Origin: Marinobacter oulmenensis
Lineage (GTDB): Bacteria; Pseudomonadota; Gammaproteobacteria; Pseudomonadales; Oleiphilaceae
DNA: 64,000 bases
Assembly (NCBI RefSeq): GCF_014201735.1
Contig: NZ_JACHFE010000002.1
Location: forward strand, 248,001 to 312,000
Reading direction: 5' to 3'
The notes beneath the pieces are model-generated. The model ran no database searches, was not told the origin of the DNA, and was given only the letters and a program-made list of their open reading frames with translations. The position numbers were made by a program, and so were the translations under genes. Below, in pieces: positions 35,071 through 48,844 of the stretch (positions within the stretch are counted from its first letter, which is position 1; every line of letters starts with the position of its first letter).

Positions 35071-35126
35071 GGTTCTGATACCTGAGTCTGAATGGGGGAC
35101 CAGACCGCGGCAACCACTGGGATGGC

Positions 35127-35206
35127 CACTCAATCCCTGCGCCGGTACAAACCGTATCAGGTTCCGCGGGTATGGTCTCAGCCCGCAAAGGGCACCCCGT
35201 TGAGTG
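35127..35206 (-). promoter_or_regulatory. TPP riboswitch (Thi box) upstream of thiBPQ
   Basis: On the minus strand the aptamer reads GGGGTGCCCTTTGCGGGCTGAGA in pieces: GGGGTGCCC, GGGCTGAGA, ACCCGCGGAACCTGAT and GCAGGGA. These are the conserved TPP elements. A 7-bp closing helix P1 pairs CACTCAA (35206-35200) with TTGAGTG (35133-35127). The element ends 56 bp before the thiB start, leaving room for an expression platform that would turn uptake down when TPP is plentiful. Confidence 0.95.
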
Positions 35207-35359
35207 TGGGAGGAGTTTAACACAGCTTGATCGACGCTCGTGAAGCTGGTCAGTTTTCGGCCAGATTCGCCGTTAAAACAGAAACTTGAAAAAAAGTGTT
35301 GACGGCCGGGACGGAATCCGTAGAATACGCAGCCGTTGATGAGGCACCGCCTCAAGCAA

Positions 35360-35435
35360 GCGGGAATAGCTCAGTTGGTAGAGCACAACCTTGCCAAGGT
35401 TGGGGTCGCGAGTTCGAATCTCGTTTCCCGCTCCA
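35360..35435 (+). tRNA. tRNA-Gly (anticodon GCC)
   Basis: 76 nt with encoded CCA. GCGGGAA pairs with TTCCCGC. The anticodon stem-loop CAACC-TTGCCAA-GGTTG carries GCC, and GAGTTCGAATCTC forms the T arm. It is 82 bp upstream of tRNA-Cys, the same pair found near pgsA in related genera. Confidence 0.97.
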
Positions 35436-35517
35436 ATTTCTCTCCGGTTTGCCGGGTGGAAATCACAATCCAGTCTCTCAAGCCCCCTGAGAGCAAAAGT
35501 CAGTTCCTGACTTCCCC

Positions 35518-35591
35518 GGCGCGGTGGCAGAGTGGTTATGCAGCGGACTGCAACTCCGTGTACGCCGGTTCGATTCCGACCCGCGCCTCCA
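35518..35591 (+). tRNA. tRNA-Cys (anticodon GCA), prophage integration target
   Basis: 74 nt with encoded CCA. GGCGCGG pairs with CCGCGCC. The anticodon loop CTGCAAC carries GCA, and CGGTTCGATTCCG is the T arm. The tRNA is intact. The prophage integrase gene lies directly downstream, so the 3' half of this tRNA is the likely attachment core. The other junction is outside the window, so the core cannot be measured. Confidence 0.96.
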
Positions 35592-35699: not shown

Positions 35700-36941
35700 T
35701 CATGCCTGCTTTTTCTTGATGTACTTCAGCGTTGATTTGCTGCGTTTCGGTGGCCGCACCAGGCGGTAGTGTTTGCGCATGGCTTCGGTTTCGTGGCCGC
35801 CCTTGTCGTTCTCGCCCTGGGACAGGAATTCATCGGTAAGGCCTTTCTTCCGTAAGTCGGACAGGTGGTACTGGCCTTTGTAGCCGGCATCTTCACAGGC
35901 CTGCGCCCAGGACAGCTGCATGAAGCGGTGCTTCACCGGTTTGGTGCGGCTGCGTTTGTCGAAGTAGTTGGGGTAGACCATCAGGTACGGGCTGATGATG
36001 CCCTGTTGGCGCTTGAAGTTGCGGAACCAGTCCACCAGGTCGCGCAGTTCCTGGTTCATTTCCAGGACGATGCCCACGGCGGTTTTGTGCCTGGCGAAGT
36101 GGATCTCCCCGTGTTCGCCTTCCTGGTCATGGATCTGGTCTTCCCGTAGGCCGAAAACATCGATGGGCTGCTGGCTCATCATGTAGATCATGTCGCAGAT
36201 CTTGGCGCGCCAGGTGCCGTCGTGCTCGCGTTTGTTGAGCTTGTGCAGGCACAGGTGGGCGGTGATTTCGGCGTAGGCGTCGTCGGGTATCAGCACATCC
36301 CGCTTCGGCTCCGCTACCTTCTTGATGTCTGGTATCGGGTTGGCGTCGATCAGGCCGTCCTGGACGGCGTGGGCAAACACGCGGGAAAGGGTGTTCCGGA
36401 GGCCGTTGTAGTGTACGGGCTTGGTGATCCAGGGCGATAGTAGCCGCCGGACCTTTCGCAAAATCCGCGGGTCTGTGAGTGTGAATGCGGAATCCTTGCT
36501 TTCTTCCAGCTGGCGCGCGTCGTTCGCGTAGTCTCGCCGGGTGGGTATGGCAATGGGCTTGCCCCTGTTCCGGCCGCGTTCTGACAGCACGTGGCATTCG
36601 GCCCAGGTAACGCCGTTTTTGGTGGGCCGGTGGCCGAGTACATCGGTTCGCCAGTGTTTGAGGTAGTCGCGCAAGGTGGTGCGGCTGCCTGCGCCAGCGG
36701 GGCGGGCTGCGGCCATGTTGCCGGCCATCAGCTGGGCGTCGAAGTCTGGCGTTTCCTGTTCCCACATTTGCTGCAGGATGGCCCAGCGGCGGATGGCCGT
36801 TTGCCGGTCCCGGGTTTTCAGGCTGCCTTGCTTACGGGTAATAGGATGGCGCACGTGGAATACGCCATCGCGGGAATTGATGTAAAGGCCAGGGTAGCGG
36901 TTAAGCCACTCCTGGCCGGGCTTTCTGCGTGGTGGTGCCAT
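35700..36941 (-). CDS. int: Tyrosine-recombinase integrase (divergent)
   Basis: 413 residues. An N-terminal arm-binding-like region (YPGLYINSRDGVFHVRHPITRK) is followed by a core-binding domain (TLRDYLKHWRTDV) and the catalytic domain. At the C-terminus SDLRKKGLTDEF, GGHETEAMRKHYRL match the R, H and tyrosine nucleophile region. The box where most integrases have G-x-R-x-x-(D/E)-L reads SQQPIDVFGL, and the HxxR box reads SDLR, so two usual catalytic residues appear replaced. It faces the attachment tRNA. Downstream of the excisionase-like gene. Confidence 0.88.
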   Translation of the reverse strand: MAPPRRKPGQEWLNRYPGLYINSRDGVFHVRHPITRKQGSLKTRDRQTAIRRWAILQQMWEQETPDFDAQLMAGNMAAARPAGAGSRTTLRDYLKHWRTDVLGHRPTKNGVTWAECHVLSERGRNRGKPIAIPTRRDYANDARQLEESKDSAFTLTDPRILRKVRRLLSPWITKPVHYNGLRNTLSRVFAHAVQDGLIDANPIPDIKKVAEPKRDVLIPDDAYAEITAHLCLHKLNKREHDGTWRAKICDMIYMMSQQPIDVFGLREDQIHDQEGEHGEIHFARHKTAVGIVLEMNQELRDLVDWFRNFKRQQGIISPYLMVYPNYFDKRSRTKPVKHRFMQLSWAQACEDAGYKGQYHLSDLRKKGLTDEFLSQGENDKGGHETEAMRKHYRLVRPPKRSKSTLKYIKKKQA

Positions 36942-38581: not shown

Positions 38582-39186
38582 GCCGCTTGTTCCTCTTCCA
38601 ATTCCCGCTTCCGCTCTTCCAGGTAACGGGTGTTGAATTCCTGCCAGCGTTGCTGGCGCTCTTGTGAGTAGTCCGGGCCGGCGAGGCGTTGGACTTGGCG
38701 TTCGTTGTCCAGGGCCTGGCGAATGATGCCGGCCGGGGCGTCGTGGTAGTGCCAGAGTTCCAGGGGGTCTTCTGGCTTTTCGCCTATCCAGGTGCGGCAG
38801 ATCCAGCCGATGTCGTATACCTGGTCTGTGCGCTGGGCGTTGAGTACTTCGGCGCGCAGGTTGTGGTAGGCGTCCTGGATGCGCTGGATGTTGTAGCTGG
38901 GCAGGTCGAACACGCAGCTTTCCATCCATTCCTTTCCGTCGATGTTGCGGCACAGGGCGCGGACGCCGATGGACCAGTTGCGGGGGTAGTCCAGCATGTG
39001 CTGGGCCAGGTCTTGCCCCATGTCGATCCAGCCGAACGGGGTGTAGCGCTGGGAGGTGACTACCTGAAGGCCGGTTTCCGGGCTGGGCATGCCTTCCCAT
39101 GTCCACACGCGGGAGTTGGCAAACAGGCGCTGGTCGCGCGCCTGGTTGCTGTTCCGTTTCTTTCGGGTTTGGCGTTTTTTGCTCAT
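38578..39186 (-). CDS. Phage protein of unknown function between methyltransferase and nuclease-like gene
   Basis: 202 residues. A basic N-terminus (SKKRQTRKKRNSNQARDQ) precedes a tryptophan-rich body (SRVWTWEGMPSPETGLQVVT; WSIGVRALCRNIDGKEWMES; YDIGWICRTWIGEKPEDPLELW) and a charged helix at the end. No domain recognised. It overlaps the methyltransferase stop (ATGA at 39183-39186) and the nuclease start, so the three are translated together. Confidence 0.7.
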   Translation of the reverse strand: MSKKRQTRKKRNSNQARDQRLFANSRVWTWEGMPSPETGLQVVTSQRYTPFGWIDMGQDLAQHMLDYPRNWSIGVRALCRNIDGKEWMESCVFDLPSYNIQRIQDAYHNLRAEVLNAQRTDQVYDIGWICRTWIGEKPEDPLELWHYHDAPAGIIRQALDNERQVQRLAGPDYSQERQQRWQEFNTRYLEERKRELEEEQAA

Positions 39187-40841
39187 GCTGTGGCTCCTTC
39201 GGAAATTCGGGGTGCCTGCGCTGTTGCCCTGTGGGCCTCACGGCATATGGCTGCCATGGGGTGGGGGCTCACTGAGTTGCCGACGAATAGCACCTGCTTT
39301 GTTTTGGTGAGCTTGCGGCCGTCGTGCCCGTGGTCGATCACATAGGAGGGGGGGAAGCCCTGGGCGTTGTACAGCTCCCGGGGCGTGAGCATGCGCAGGC
39401 CGATGTCCACGATCACATAGGACTGGCCCTTGATCGTCACGGTGACCAGAGCCAGGCGGTCTTTGGTGGTGATGGTGCCCAGTGGCTTGTTCAGGTCGCC
39501 CCACTGACCGCCGGTGCTGTAGTAGTGCATCAGGAATGCGGCCACCTGCAGGGCGCCGGCTTCCTGTTCGGGGGACAGGGTGCATTGCACCAGGGCACTC
39601 TTACCCCCGCCGCCTGCGGTGATGGTCGGTGCTGGCGTCGTCACATCGCTGCCGATGCTGGCGCCAAACTGGCGAGACAGGAACGCGGTCACCAACTGCT
39701 GCTGGCTGCCGGTGCTGGTGATGGCTGTCATGGGTTTGCGCAGGTCGTGGCCTGGTGTTTCGTTGTAGCCGCCGTTCATCTGGGCCATGTAGGCTGTCAC
39801 CAGTGAGAATGACCCGCCACGGGGCCATGCGGTGATAGTGCGCAGCGGCTCATTAATCGGCTGCACAGATTCACCAGCGCCGTAGTTCGCGATGGGCACT
39901 ATGAAAGGCTCGGCGTTGTCCAAAACAAACCTCCGGATGCCCTTGGCGATCCGGCGCAGGGTGTTGTCTGCCAGCGGCCGTTTGCGGGTGAAAATGCTCG
40001 GCACCGGAATGGACCAATCAATGCTGTCGGCAGCGGTGACCCACTTTTTCTGGCCAGTCTTTGGGTGCTTGGCATGCGTGGGCTTGGGCCAGGTAATTGG
40101 CAGGCCATCGCGGCGAGCGATGAGGAACAGGCGTTCCCGGGTGGTGCCGGCGCCGTAATCACAGGCGCGGAGAGTTCGCCACTGAACCTGGTACCCCATG
40201 GCACGGAGGCCTTCCACAAAATGCTTCCAGTTTTGGCCTTTGCGCTTTTTGCAGGGAACCAGGTACTGATTGGTAACCGGCACGCGCTCGCCTGGCTCGG
40301 CCACACGGTAGGTTTTGCGGCCGGTTTTCGGGTGAATAATGGTCTCGAGCGTAACAACGCGGCCGGTACTCGGGCAGCGCTTTGCTACCAGCGGCGCCCA
40401 GTTCAGCATTTGTTCAACGTTTTCCATGGTGATGATCCGGGGCTTGGCCCGGCCGGCCCACTTGTGGACTACCCAGGCCAGTGAGCGAATGGCCTTTTTC
40501 CTGGGCTGACCACCGGCAGCTTGGCTATGGTCAGTGCAATCTGGGGAGGCATGGAGGTGGCCGACAAGGCGACCACCAAACTCAGCAACAACCAGGTGCG
40601 GATCCACCTCAAAGACATCGCTCACGTAATGACGACACCCTGGATGGTTTGCTTGGTGCTGGCTGATGGCGTCCTCGTTGTGGTTGATGGCAAAGTGAAC
40701 CGGCTGCCCGGTTCCTAGCTCAACGCCAGTGCTGGCGCCACCGCCGCCCGCGAAAAGGTCGCCGTTGATCTCGCCTTCAAAGCTGAGGCCGTACTGGGTC
40801 TTAAATTCGCGGGACCGGATGTTGGAAACCGTCGCTTTCAC
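39183..40841 (-). CDS. C5-cytosine DNA methyltransferase
   Basis: 552 residues. Motif I is GDLFAGGGGASTGVE near 28. Motif IV carries the catalytic cysteine in SPDCTDHSQAAGG, PDC instead of the usual PCQ. Motif VI is ENVEQ, motif VIII is TTRERLFLIARRD, and motifs IX-X end with LTPRELYNAQGFPPSYVI and GNSVSPHPM. A large variable target-recognition region lies between. It would methylate phage or host DNA and could protect against restriction. The start overlaps the upstream gene by 4 bp. Confidence 0.9.
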   Translation of the reverse strand: MKATVSNIRSREFKTQYGLSFEGEINGDLFAGGGGASTGVELGTGQPVHFAINHNEDAISQHQANHPGCRHYVSDVFEVDPHLVVAEFGGRLVGHLHASPDCTDHSQAAGGQPRKKAIRSLAWVVHKWAGRAKPRIITMENVEQMLNWAPLVAKRCPSTGRVVTLETIIHPKTGRKTYRVAEPGERVPVTNQYLVPCKKRKGQNWKHFVEGLRAMGYQVQWRTLRACDYGAGTTRERLFLIARRDGLPITWPKPTHAKHPKTGQKKWVTAADSIDWSIPVPSIFTRKRPLADNTLRRIAKGIRRFVLDNAEPFIVPIANYGAGESVQPINEPLRTITAWPRGGSFSLVTAYMAQMNGGYNETPGHDLRKPMTAITSTGSQQQLVTAFLSRQFGASIGSDVTTPAPTITAGGGGKSALVQCTLSPEQEAGALQVAAFLMHYYSTGGQWGDLNKPLGTITTKDRLALVTVTIKGQSYVIVDIGLRMLTPRELYNAQGFPPSYVIDHGHDGRKLTKTKQVLFVGNSVSPHPMAAICREAHRATAQAPRISEGATA

Positions 40842-45544: not shown

Positions 45545-45766
45545 TCAAAAGGTGCGAATGTGCGCCTCGGTATTCCCGGCGCCAGCGGTCATGCTTTCTC
45601 CCGTGGGCAGCAAGGCGGACTCAGCCTGGGCTATCAGCATCTGGCGAATCAGCCCGGCCCGGTCGGTGCCGGTGTAATCCACCAGGGCGTTGATCAAAGC
45701 GGCTTCGTAGTCGTCCAGATTGATGCTGACGCGGTTTTTCCGGATTCGTTTGGGGTCCTGATACAT
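45545..45766 (-). CDS. Ribbon-helix-helix-like protein
   Basis: 73 residues. RKNRVSINLDDYEAALINALVDYTGTDRAGLIRQML fits the ribbon-helix-helix pattern (beta-strand VSINL, two helices, glycine before helix two). Likely a small repressor or antirepressor of the early operon. Confidence 0.65.
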   Translation of the reverse strand: MYQDPKRIRKNRVSINLDDYEAALINALVDYTGTDRAGLIRQMLIAQAESALLPTGESMTAGAGNTEAHIRTF

Positions 45767-45783
45767 GGCGTTTTCCTTAGGTC

Positions 45784-45984
45784 TCAGGCTTGCTGGCCGC
45801 TTTTGTACTGCTCCAGTCCCTGCAAAAAGAAGATGCGGGCCTGGGCAGCCATGGAGCGGCTTTCCTTTTTGGCGATGTCGTGCAGCTCGTCGCGTTCCTG
45901 TTCCATCAGGCGGAGCGCAACCGGTTTGCCGACAACAACGCCGGATGGGGCGCGGGAGAAGACGGGTTTATTGGCGGCAGCCAT
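45784..45984 (-). CDS. Ribbon-helix-helix-like protein, first gene divergent from the repressor
   Basis: 66 residues. GKPVALRLMEQERDELHDIAKKESRSMAAQARIFFLQGL is compatible with an Arc/MetJ-type fold. It is the first gene of the early operon, back to back with the CI-like gene across the 100-bp control region, where a Cro or Cox function would be expected. That role is inference. Confidence 0.62.
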   Translation of the reverse strand: MAAANKPVFSRAPSGVVVGKPVALRLMEQERDELHDIAKKESRSMAAQARIFFLQGLEQYKSGQQA

Positions 45985-45994
45985 GGTGTATCCT

Positions 45995-46017
45995 CTGTGT
46001 TATGTCGTGTTACACAG
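45995..46017. promoter_or_regulatory. Candidate operator in the repressor / early control region
   Basis: CTGTGT, 11 bases, ACACAG forms an inverted repeat. GTGTTA occurs twice inside it, 10 bp apart (45997 and 46007). It lies between the divergent early operon and the repressor gene. No experimental support. Confidence 0.45.
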
Positions 46018-46084
46018 AATGATAGACGCATAAATGGTTGCCGGTAAACAAACATGCGATTTTATTTATCTATCGGAAATATAA

Positions 46085-46756
46085 ATGAGTGACGAAAAAT
46101 ATAATGGGTTATCAATAGTAACCAGAATGAAAGAGTGCCTGGGGCTTGACCGAGATAAAGATCTGGCGGCGCATTTCGGGGTTAACCCACAGATGGTTTA
46201 CAACTGGAAGGCTCGGGGCACGATCCCTCTGGACCAGTGCATTCAACTGCGGGAAGAAAAGGGCCTTAGCCTGGACTGGTTGCTTTTGGGCGTGGGTATA
46301 TCAGAACCGGTTAGAGAGCCATCGGCAGGCTACTACGTAGACCAGGAATACACAGAAGTTCCTCTATATGACGTTGAAGCCAGCGCCGGCGACGGCTCTT
46401 TCTTTGAAGACGAAAACATTGTTGGTTACCGGAAATTCTCCAACGACTGGCTCACCCGGGAGGGGCTGAACAAGGCCACGCTGGCGCTTATTCGTGTTGC
46501 CGGCGATTCCATGGATAGCACACTGCATGATGGGGATACCGTCCTGGTCGATCTATCAAAGAGAAAGCCTGACGGCGTTTTCGCTCTTCGTTTTGGTGAT
46601 GCGCTTCGGATCAAGCGACTACAGCGGATGACGGATGGTTCGCTGAGGGTGTCCAGCGACAACGAGATGTACCGGGAAGAGGTGGTCCATCCGGAAAACC
46701 TGGACCAGATCGAGATTATCGGCCTGTGCCATTGGCGCGGCGGGCGCGTTTTCTAG
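46085..46756 (+). CDS. cI: CI-type repressor with S24 (LexA-like) autocleavage domain
   Basis: 223 residues. The N-terminal helix-turn-helix (MKECLGLDRDKDLAAHFGVNPQMVYNWKARGTIPLDQCIQL) belongs to the phage CI_repr group. The C-terminal S24 peptidase has a candidate cleavage site EASAGDGSF, catalytic Ser in VAGDSMDSTLHDGD and catalytic Lys in ALRIKRLQ. Such repressors cut themselves when RecA is activated by DNA damage. It therefore keeps lysogeny and is likely SOS-inducible, unlike the P2 C repressor. Codon and base use are AT-richer than the early operon. Confidence 0.9.
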   Translation: MSDEKYNGLSIVTRMKECLGLDRDKDLAAHFGVNPQMVYNWKARGTIPLDQCIQLREEKGLSLDWLLLGVGISEPVREPSAGYYVDQEYTEVPLYDVEASAGDGSFFEDENIVGYRKFSNDWLTREGLNKATLALIRVAGDSMDSTLHDGDTVLVDLSKRKPDGVFALRFGDALRIKRLQRMTDGSLRVSSDNEMYREEVVHPENLDQIEIIGLCHWRGGRVF

Positions 46757-46802
46757 AAGAAGAAATGAGAATTGGGTGTTGGCTGACTCAGGGAGTAATG
46801 GC

Positions 46803-47267
46803 ATGGAAATCATCTGTTTTAACTACACTGATTCGCGAGGCCATACCACGGACTGGCGGCTTTCGGAGTGGAAAGAATCGGGCCGCTACCTACAAGGAGT
46901 GTGTTCTGTCGATGGCCGGTTCCGGACCTTCCGGAAGGATCGGGTGAACTCTTACCTGGATGCTGGCGCAGACGTCTTAACGGAGCCTTATTCACCGCCG
47001 CCACCGACAATCGATACCCGTCCGGAGATCTGCTTCACTGGATTCCCAAAGGTTCAAAGAGGCGCCCTTGAGGATATGGCTCGTAGCCACGAAATGGCCG
47101 TTAAAAAGGATGTGACCAAAGACCTGGCTTTCCTCTGTTGTGGTCCGAATGCCGGGCCGGCAAAAGTTGCCAAGGCAAGGGAGCGGGGCTGCTTAATTAT
47201 TGATGAGCCGGGGTTGAAGATGATGCTGGATACCGGGGAAATCCCGGAATCCTGGGAGTATGAATAG
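46803..47267 (+). CDS. WYL-like / BRCT-domain fusion protein, prophage cargo
   Basis: 154 residues from the ATG at 46803 (GGGAGTAATGGC before it). The first ~50 residues (FNYTDSRGHTTDWRLSEWKESGRYLQGVC, then RTFRKDRV) resemble a WYL-domain beta-barrel. Residues ~75-150 form a BRCT domain (ICFTGFPKVQRGALEDMA; LAFLCCGPNAGPAKVAKARERGCLIIDEPGL) like the one ending LigA at the left of this window. It has no ligase catalytic domain. It lies after cI on the same strand, so it may be expressed in the lysogen. Confidence 0.75.
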   Translation: MEIICFNYTDSRGHTTDWRLSEWKESGRYLQGVCSVDGRFRTFRKDRVNSYLDAGADVLTEPYSPPPPTIDTRPEICFTGFPKVQRGALEDMARSHEMAVKKDVTKDLAFLCCGPNAGPAKVAKARERGCLIIDEPGLKMMLDTGEIPESWEYE

Positions 47268-47320
47268 CCCGTCATATTCCGGAAAATGGATAGTCATAAA
47301 AGCGAAAATGGAGCAGTACC

Positions 47321-47854
47321 ATGGCAATGACCAAATGCAAAGAGTGCAAACAGGAAGTATCCACCACCGCCAAGAAGTGCCCGCATTGCGGCGTTTCAAA
47401 CCCCGGGGTGACCGCCAAGGAAATGGCCATCGGCACTGCTGTGGTGGTCGTTGTTTTGTTTGGTTTTGGGGCGTGGCTGGTGTCTGATGATGAATCGGAG
47501 GCGGCGGTATCAGAAGCCGATGCAGTGAAAGCGGAAGCCCAGATGGATGCAGAAGCCTGCCGGCAGGATCTTCAGTGCTGGGGCAAGGAAAACTGGGCGG
47601 CGGCCACTAACCGCTGCCAGAAGCAGATCGAGCGCCAGGCGCAGTATGAAGTGAAGTGGACCGACTCATACCCCGATACCAAGCTAACCCGCAGGGCCTG
47701 GCTGGACCAGGAAGAGGGCACGCTGACTTACTACGGTGACCGGGTTCAGTTCTCCAACGCCTATGGTGCTTTCCAGAACTACATTTACCGCTGTGACTAT
47801 GATCCGTTCACCAAAACGGTGATCAATCTGGAAATGGAGCCGGGGCGGATCTGA
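47321..47854 (+). CDS. Membrane-anchored zinc-ribbon protein, prophage cargo
   Basis: 177 residues. An N-terminal zinc ribbon (C6-x2-C9 and C20-x2-C23, in CKECKQEV and KCPHCGVSN) is followed by one TM helix (MAIGTAVVVVVLFGFGAWLV, residues ~36-55) and a ~120-residue domain, probably periplasmic, with four or more cysteines (ACRQDLQCWGKENW; NRCQKQIERQ; YRCDYDPF). Zinc ribbon inside, sensor or plug outside is plausible. GGAGCAGTACC precedes the ATG. Downstream of the BRCT gene and 3 bp from convergent gene D. Confidence 0.7.
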   Translation: MAMTKCKECKQEVSTTAKKCPHCGVSNPGVTAKEMAIGTAVVVVVLFGFGAWLVSDDESEAAVSEADAVKAEAQMDAEACRQDLQCWGKENWAAATNRCQKQIERQAQYEVKWTDSYPDTKLTRRAWLDQEEGTLTYYGDRVQFSNAYGAFQNYIYRCDYDPFTKTVINLEMEPGRI

Positions 47855-47857
47855 CCG

Positions 47858-48844
47858 TTACCCATTCCCGGTTTCAGCCTCCAGGCTGGACACTAAACCG
47901 CTGTCGCTCACGCTGTGGGCGACAGAAACCACCACCCATTCCCGTTCGTTAATCTGCCGTTTCAGCCCCTGTACCCGCATCCGGAATTCCGGGCCGATGT
48001 CTGGCCGGCCGGTGGCCAGGGTGATGCTGAACTCCGCCTCCCCGCGTTTTATCCGGTTGAGCTCTGCCACGGCTGCGGCGTTGGCCTCCTGTTGGTTGGC
48101 GTAGGTGCCGCGCAGGCGTTTGGTCCGTTCGTCGGTGCCGGCCTGCACGGGCTTTTGCTCCCCCGCGTCCAGGTCATTGTAGTAGGCCACCACGCCGGTG
48201 TAGTTGTCGCGGTCTTTCTCGCTGTAGTTGTACCCGTCGCCATCGCCCGGGGTGATGGTGATCAGCGGCATGGCCTGCCCGGAGACGGTTTCGGCCTGGC
48301 CTTTTGGCAGGAACAGCAGGCGGCCGGATTTCACGGTTGCGATGGCGTCGTGCTGTTCGGCCAGGCGGGTGACCAGGTTCAGGTCGCTTTCGTCGGTCTG
48401 GTCCAGGTGTTCGATGGTGCGGCCCGCCAGGGCGCTGCCGATCACTGGCTCCAGGCTGTGGTTGTCGGCGATGGTGGCCACCAGGTCGCCCACGTTGGTT
48501 TGGTGCCAGCTGCGGGTTTTGCGGGTGGGCAGATCGCCGCGCATGTCTGCAGCGCGCGCGCTGATGCTGATGACATCCGGCGGGCCGCTGAAGCTGGCGT
48601 CGTCTACCGTGAAAAGGCCTTTTTCTTCCAGGGGCTGGCCGCGCCAGCCGAACGCCACCTGGATTTCTGCGCCCTTGGGCGGGATCTCCAGGGCGCCGTC
48701 GTGGTCGCTGAGTGTGATGCTGAGGGTGTCGGCCTCGTCTCCACGTTTGGTGCTGACTGTGAGGTCGATCAGGCGGCCGTTTACTTTGGGCGTGATGTCC
48801 TGGCCGTTCACCACCAGGCGGTAGTCCGGGGCTTTGTGGTTCAT
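47858..48844 (-). CDS. D: P2 gpD-like tail protein (late control D)
   Basis: 328 residues. PDYRLVVNGQDITPKVNGRLIDLTVSTKRGDEADTL is the characteristic start, and VAFGWRGQPLEEKGLFTVDDASFSGPP the family core. gpD is part of the P2 tail tip/baseplate region. The last late gene in this orientation, overlapping U by 4 bp. Confidence 0.93.
   Translation of the reverse strand: MNHKAPDYRLVVNGQDITPKVNGRLIDLTVSTKRGDEADTLSITLSDHDGALEIPPKGAEIQVAFGWRGQPLEEKGLFTVDDASFSGPPDVISISARAADMRGDLPTRKTRSWHQTNVGDLVATIADNHSLEPVIGSALAGRTIEHLDQTDESDLNLVTRLAEQHDAIATVKSGRLLFLPKGQAETVSGQAMPLITITPGDGDGYNYSEKDRDNYTGVVAYYNDLDAGEQKPVQAGTDERTKRLRGTYANQQEANAAAVAELNRIKRGEAEFSITLATGRPDIGPEFRMRVQGLKRQINEREWVVVSVAHSVSDSGLVSSLEAETGNG

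Follow-up and report, generated by a model that had tools for sequence, protein, structure and literature searches.

In the genome of Marinobacter oulmenensis, the cI-type repressor gene of a P2-like prophage was followed by a gene for a small protein, P0001, in which a WYL module is joined to a BRCT domain, and by a gene for a membrane protein, P0002, which in related prophages behaves as a separate cassette. We propose that the WYL-BRCT protein is a lysogen-expressed, non-enzymatic, predicted binder of 5'-phosphorylated ends and single-stranded DNA that acts in inter-phage competition or defence; the probability of this reading is estimated at about 0.45. Small genes adjacent to repressors are known to supply anti-phage functions. 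The PHROGs families of both proteins and prophage cargo beside the repressor were known already, but the WYL-BRCT architecture, its binding residues and the cassette behaviour were not found described in the titles and beginnings of abstracts covered; no WYL-BRCT phage protein was described there, and the nearest record was PMC13345283.

Repressor-to-tail slot of the prophage

The window, i.e., the whole stretch of 64,000 nucleotides that was analyzed, is part of contig C2 of a 3.7-Mb genome and contains the prophage. Both open reading frames of the plus strand to which the sequence-only reading had drawn attention were confirmed (Table 1), and their position as cargo on the repressor strand, from cI to the convergent gpD, was borne out by the Pfam matches of both flanking genes. 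The gaps were 46 bp between cI and P0001 and 53 bp between P0001 and P0002, and the stop codon of P0002 was located 3 bp short of the gpD end. A simple scan of positions 45700–48000 detected neither a promoter-like site on the plus strand nor a terminator-like site. Because of the short gaps and the lack of such sites in this interval, cI, P0001, and P0002 are probably co-transcribed and hence expressed in the lysogen.

Table 1. Features of the slot between the repressor and tail genes (positions in the window)
Feature	Position	Strand	Evidence
cI-type repressor with S24 (LexA-like) domain	46085..46756	+	Pfam Phage_CI_repr 8.9e-16, Peptidase_S24 1.7e-17; phrog_4 5.5e-43
P0001, WYL-BRCT protein, 154 aa	46803..47267	+	phrog_2561; AlphaFold pLDDT 91.8
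WYL (Sm-like) module of P0001, residues 1–55, with Y29, R41, R44, R47	46803..46967	+	PafBC 6.8e-5; conservation
BRCT domain of P0001, residues 72–146, pocket T79, G80, R86, K121	47016..47240	+	RFC1/LigA matches; conservation
P0002, zinc-ribbon/one-TM/outer-domain protein, 177 aa	47321..47854	+	phrog_13160; AlphaFold pLDDT 88.2
Zinc ribbon of P0002, residues 5–24	47333..47392	+	PF10571 1.1e-5, PF13248 6e-5, both below curated cut-offs; all four Cys invariant (43 sequences)
TM helix of P0002, residues 32–51	47414..47473	+	helix in model; hydropathy scan
Outer domain of P0002, residues 80–177	47558..47851	+	undistinctive fold matches (cystatin, NTF2, VirB8-like); best VIA Z 7.4
gpD tail gene, convergent, closes the slot	47858..48844	-	PF05954 6.9e-15; phrog_52

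Elsewhere in the same prophage, a C5 cytosine DNA methyltransferase with many PADLOC methyltransferase matches was encoded (39183–40841). A TPP riboswitch, tRNA-Gly, and tRNA-Cys (35117–35591) adjoined the prophage integrase (35700–36941), and this stretch beside the integrase is a likely attachment site of the prophage.

Architecture and conserved residues of the two proteins

P0001 matched phrog_2561 over nearly its entire length in the PHROGs profile search (E = 7.1e-38). As a single protein, it scored 19.9 bits with the BRCT model PF00533, just below the Pfam cut-off of 21.3; the family profile of 55 sequences matched solved structures of RFC1 (1.5e-9) and of DNA ligases (from 1.8e-7) over the BRCT part. 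The AlphaFold model (51 sequences) showed a barrel of five strands and a BRCT of canonical form. Foldseek ranked the RFC1 BRCT first (7u1a, 3.2e-5) and PafBC 20th (probability 0.99, E = 4.1e-3), while VIA gave the BRCT domain Z values of 10.9 to RFC1 (2ebu) and 12.2 to the Rad4 BRCT (4bu0). The domain was thus recognized both by the family profile and by the predicted fold.

With the WYL model PF13280, the whole protein scored 14.6 bits and its N-terminal part alone 18.2 bits, the cut-off being 21.8. Two relatives, L072 (33.1 bits) and L175 (27.5 bits), were above this cut-off, and E values of 0.01 or lower with the Pfam WYL model were obtained for 23 of the 44 N-terminal modules (best 8.7e-10). 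The profile of the 44 modules, compared with solved structures, matched PafBC first (6.8e-5), then PafC (0.01), with chain 8bnv of an AAA ATPase in third place (0.11). The Sm-like five-stranded WYL fold was seen in the predicted model (strands 4–9, 15–26, 29–34, 40–44, and 48–52).

A catalytic domain of P0001 was not found in searches with Pfam, PHROGs, TIGR, and PADLOC models. The NAD-dependent ligase model TIGR00575 was matched by the BRCT end only (positions 589–651 of 652), and P0001, L206, and L211 matched the PADLOC candidate model PDC-S48 through the BRCT. Relatives are named DNA ligase in three records of P2-like phages of E. coli and Mannheimia, and other names in use for the WYL-BRCT family are exonuclease, BRCT protein, and hypothetical. 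For P0001, with its WYL-plus-BRCT architecture, the label DNA ligase looks wrong, because no ligase catalytic domain was found; identity as a DNA ligase was rejected, an adenylation domain not having been found with these models either. The sequence-only description of a WYL module fused to a ligase-type BRCT, non-catalytic, is supported by the family profiles and the predicted fold, with RFC1 as a further kin of the BRCT.

The BRCT pocket was conserved throughout the 55-sequence alignment, from which L172 and L211 were left out: T79 was present in 54 sequences with a serine in the remaining one, and G80, a basic residue at position 86 (36 R, 19 K), and K121 were present in all 55. This is the pattern of the phosphate-binding BRCTs of RFC1 and XRCC1, i.e., T/S-G after strand 1, a basic residue in helix 1, and a lysine before helix 2. 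In the alignment with human RFC1, R86 and K121 pair with an arginine and a lysine 35 residues apart, presumably R423 and K458. The BRCT of RFC1 (p140) was the best solved match to P0001 both by sequence and by Foldseek and shares the pocket T, G, R/K, and K; however, RFC1 is a large clamp-loader subunit with AAA+ domains, whereas P0001 is a protein of 154 aa with a WYL module in their place. The reported ligands of the conserved BRCT pocket are DNA ends for RFC1, poly(ADP-ribose) for XRCC1, and phosphopeptides for several BRCTs (PMC6334254), and since the same pocket takes all three, it does not by itself fix the ligand. Within the whole RFC, the BRCT was reported to contact DNA mainly by another face (PMC9293009, PMC9293004). 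Given its RFC1/LigA kind, the BRCT of P0001 is predicted most likely to hold the 5'-phosphate of a nick or of a DNA end.

Among the same 55 sequences, Y29 was found in 43, R/K41 in 52, R/K44 in 51, and R47 in 51. In P0001, the tyrosine and the three arginines have a spacing identical to that of Y196, R208, R211, and R214 of PafB, the WYL of PafBC being the nearest solved relative of the module. The PafB variants R211A/R214A and Y196A and the triple variant R181A/R204A/R208A were reported to lose binding to single-stranded DNA (PMC11804915), and the WYL domain of a Pif1 helicase is cited as binding the 5' end of single-stranded DNA (PMC9964779). PafBC is a transcription activator with HTH and WCX domains (PMC6789036, PMC11804915), whereas neither of these domains of WYL transcription regulators was found in the 154 aa of P0001. 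Single-stranded DNA is, accordingly with these likenesses, the most likely predicted ligand of the WYL module.

P0002 matched phrog_13160 over residues 10–171 of 177 (E = 2e-18); this family, for which PHROGs gives no function, and the zinc-ribbon/TM proteins of PF10571 and PF13248 were the nearest to it. The zinc ribbon scored 25.9 bits with PF10571 (cut-off 29) and 22.8 bits with PF13248 (cut-off 27), and its C6, C9, C20, and C23 were invariant across 43 aligned sequences. In the AlphaFold model, one long helix, which fits a TM segment, preceded an outer alpha+beta domain bearing cysteines (TM calls here and below are those of a hydropathy scan). The earlier description of a zinc ribbon, one TM helix, and a cysteine-containing outer domain thus agrees with the invariant cysteines, the model, and the hydropathy. 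The fold search with the outer domain reached a best E of 0.1 in Foldseek, and the near-tied VIA rows included cystatin, TraM, DotI, and VirB8; such matches can reflect a common arrangement, and no function was drawn from the fold. We take P0002 to be a separate inner-membrane cargo protein whose outer domain probably works at the envelope, and superinfection exclusion is our guess for its function.

Repressor neighbourhood and the proposed role of WYL-BRCT

For the neighbourhood survey, 124 WYL-BRCT loci were collected from genomes, viral contigs, and records of phages and were grouped at 80% identity into 57 clusters, one of which (L172) shows the BRCT part only. The viral contigs were represented by the best 80 of 175 matches for WYL-BRCT, 80 of 223 for P0002, and 80 of 372 for gpD. 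Dropped beforehand were L183–L188 (Bacteroidetes, BRCT only), L065–L067 (BRCT without WYL), L062 and L063 (from genomes already represented by L156 and L153), and L069 and L070 (plasmid records). Of the 293 genomes of the order that were searched with phrog_2561, 288 were positive, since LigA also matches through its BRCT; nine places besides the window were followed up (L022–L025, L027–L030, L039).

In 29 of the 57 clusters, WYL-BRCT directly followed a cI-type gene on the same strand, with gaps of -26 to 100 bp (median 28); the label cI-type was assigned from BLAST matches to a small set of reference proteins. The cI gene was within two genes in 8 further clusters, and no cI was recognized close upstream in the other 20, of which L159, L160, and L172 lie less than 2 kb from the locus end. 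P0002 homologues directly followed cI in 22 of 52 clusters, or in 21 of the 41 with more than 1 kb upstream. For K139/PhiO18P-like prophages, the interval from cI to int was reported as an antiviral hotspot in a paper that does not mention BRCT in its main text (Rousset 2022, PMC9122126); WYL-BRCT was likewise located between cI and int in four clusters (L054, L170, L176, L206), whereas the slot in the window is bounded by gpD.

The position directly after cI would also suit a DNA-damage sensor of the lysis–lysogeny switch, binding single-stranded DNA or ends made by damage and modulating the repressor or induction. The WYL of the PafBC kind is consistent with such a role, as PafBC senses single-stranded DNA (PMC11804915), and a 2026 preprint proposes a DNA-damage response for BRCT proteins of Roseobacter prophage regulatory modules, which are likened to ours by BRCT content alone (PMC13345283). 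We regard this role as the main alternative, but as less likely than the one preferred below. The cI of the window already has an S24 domain. A link of WYL-BRCT to short repressors was rejected: 18 of the 29 repressors beside WYL-BRCT and 16 of the 22 beside P0002 homologues were short (Fisher p = 0.55). Two prophages, L076 and L078, are 90.7% identical from the repressor through the P0002 homologue and 94.1% identical from there into the tail genes, and L078 has an additional WYL-BRCT gene between P0002's homologue and gpD (another divergent stretch is found further upstream).

In the E. coli prophages inspected, moreover, the gene is not a neighbour of cI. Of 5,426 complete E. coli genomes, 173 had a match to the homologue from Escherichia phage Cartapus, with a query cover of 80% or more in 168. 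In all four regions inspected, WYL-BRCT was the first gene after ssrA, at the ssrA edge 123 bp from the tmRNA gene, and convergent with ogr, with neither cI nor a membrane gene beside it; the adjacent ogr-D segment was found with at least 80% query cover in 197 genomes. As the E. coli protein stands alone, it could therefore act, if at all, as a single gene, and the 168 carriers make its role accessible in laboratory strains. Taken together, the stand-alone sites, the presence and absence of the gene while cI is kept, and the similar mix of repressors make cargo more probable than a component of the switch.

The reading that we prefer is the DNA-end binder with a role in inter-phage competition or defence. 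The cI-to-tail slot of the P2-like prophage would be occupied by two independent single-gene cassettes, transcribed with cI and expressed in the lysogen. The BRCT would take the 5'-phosphate at an end or nick and the WYL module the single strand, and both modules together would suit a duplex end or a gap next to a single strand. One candidate target would be the genome ends of a phage that is entering the cell or replicating; rival phages might be affected by occupation of these ends or by signalling of the ends to neighbours, which vary among phages. If the end-sensing reading is true, immunity through recognition of DNA ends without catalysis would, as far as we know, be a new tactic for a prophage. 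The conserved residues offer clean mutants.

A more far-reaching but unlikely version of this reading is that the protein is a bivalent enzyme-free recognizer that by itself caps single-strand-flanked, 5'-phosphorylated duplex ends of the incoming phage genome. Circularization or replication would then be blocked, and the TM-fused or membrane-paired forms described below would act at the site of DNA entry; WYL-BRCT would in that case represent prophage immunity in a minimal form, disseminated on a cassette of ~0.5 kb.

Cassette exchange and neighbouring genes

According to the sequence-only reading, P0001 and P0002 could form one exclusion or defence pair of a sensor and a membrane protein. 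The genes are adjacent in the window; however, close relatives showed that one can replace the other. Prophages L207 and L110 were 94.9% identical up to the repressor end and 98.5% identical from the next cargo gene onward, and the interval between these flanks contained either WYL-BRCT or P0002's homologue, one per prophage. Other close relatives had WYL-BRCT only (L002, L003, L271) or P0002 only (L006 to L010). These swaps, together with the presence and absence of the gene in near-identical prophages and with each gene alone in relatives, speak against one fixed two-protein system. The swapped prophages L207 and L110 represent a natural experiment on each cassette.

The survey anchored on gpD comprised the best 80 of 372 loci, 66 of them with 2 kb beyond gpD (one row of the gpD alignment is a partial gpD). 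WYL-family genes were present in 14 of the 66 loci, P0002 homologues in 10, and both in 4 (odds ratio 3.1, Fisher p = 0.20). After removal of gpD more than 95% identical, both were present in 2 of 41 loci (p = 0.20), and after removal at more than 85% in 2 of 28 (p = 0.25). The 14 WYL-family loci consisted of eight with WYL and BRCT, five with WYL only, and one with BRCT only. In the strict count restricted to the eight, both genes were found in 3 of 66 loci (odds ratio 4.4, p = 0.09), these three being two near-identical contigs and the phage of the window itself; this recount slightly raised our estimate for the pair. Thus, with p from 0.09 to 0.20 over the 66 loci, the association expected of a pair was not significant, and co-occurrence in the slot is at most a possible, non-significant tendency in small numbers. 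Among 100 genomes of the genus, P0001 was full length in three, with its BRCT part in one more, and P0002 was full length only in the genome of the window (G000), with its N-terminal part in three others. No genome besides G000 had both, which is weak evidence because full-length P0002 was seen once.

A zinc-ribbon/TM gene was located within 1.2 kb of WYL-BRCT in 5 of the 57 clusters, after it in the window and L205 and before it in L077, L136, and L156; three of these five neighbours matched P0002 over the full length, and in L205 the stop and start of the two genes overlap. TM helices were fused N-terminally to WYL-BRCT in 4 of the 57 clusters (L061, L175, L177, L179), a call inside the BRCT of L160 not being counted, and in L072 a WYL protein with TM helices adjoins P0002's homologue. 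WYL-BRCT may therefore have an optional link to the membrane through such neighbours or its own helices. A fixed P0001–P0002 pair was rejected, mainly by the cassette swaps, while the small surveys do not support it, and we consider one joint system quite unlikely. The titles of the TM-fused records L175, L177, and L179 refer to a Pasteurellaceae bacterium, Ursidibacter, and Pasteurella.

An accessory repair factor, helping ligation or protecting ends of the phage's own genome, is improbable: the BRCT is of the LigA/RFC1 kind and the family is labelled DNA ligase in PHROGs and some records, but the gene shares its strand with the repressor and not with the late genes, is absent from a close relative of one such phage (L076/L078), and has no catalytic domain found.

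Known or candidate defence genes were sought with PADLOC (< 1e-6, within two genes) in 18 loci hand-picked from the 57 clusters plus L270, and were detected near WYL-BRCT in five of them: Drt3a in L197, PDC-S39 in L170, an AriA-like protein matched over part of its length in L161, AbiTii in L059, and PDC-S15 and a PglW-like protein in L270. At this threshold, none was found in L060, L136, L151, L152, L155, L156, L166, L172, L173, L198, L201, L207, or the window. In L270, a 66% identical relative from the same genus, NERD and FRG genes were present, each two genes away, on the upstream and the downstream side, respectively; other neighbours were a GHKL ATPase (L156) and a RES-annotated gene (phage Cartapus). 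PADLOC was also applied to 74 cargo proteins of the gpD slot, hand-picked from 129 with most P0001/P0002 homologues and most short proteins omitted; only methyltransferase-type models were matched, by 2 members, among the 25 of 115 families listed, a result of little weight.

Several other genes were noted. A two-gene unit encoding proteins of 356 aa and of 176 aa with 3 predicted TM helices (L207:3896-5500, L108:5539-7143, L110:5539-7143) follows WYL-BRCT or P0002's homologue in near-identical prophages; neither gene had a PADLOC or Pfam match at the limits used, and the unit is a candidate for an undescribed system. A protein of 310–313 aa (L072:4028-4969; also L281, L283, L284, L285) recurred between cI and gpD; it has a WYL module at its C terminus, a helical region in the middle, and predicted TM helices, and no BRCT was seen by profile. 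Proteins of 681 aa (L156:6759-8804) and 674 aa (L137:5638-7662), 46% identical, were encoded after cI and P0002-type genes; the former is the GHKL-type ATPase mentioned above and had no PADLOC match, and the L357 copy of the latter had weak PADLOC matches only. In several close relatives (L003:4474-5079, L006:1632-2237), the cargo is separated from gpD by a reverse-strand gene of 201 aa, which the window lacks.
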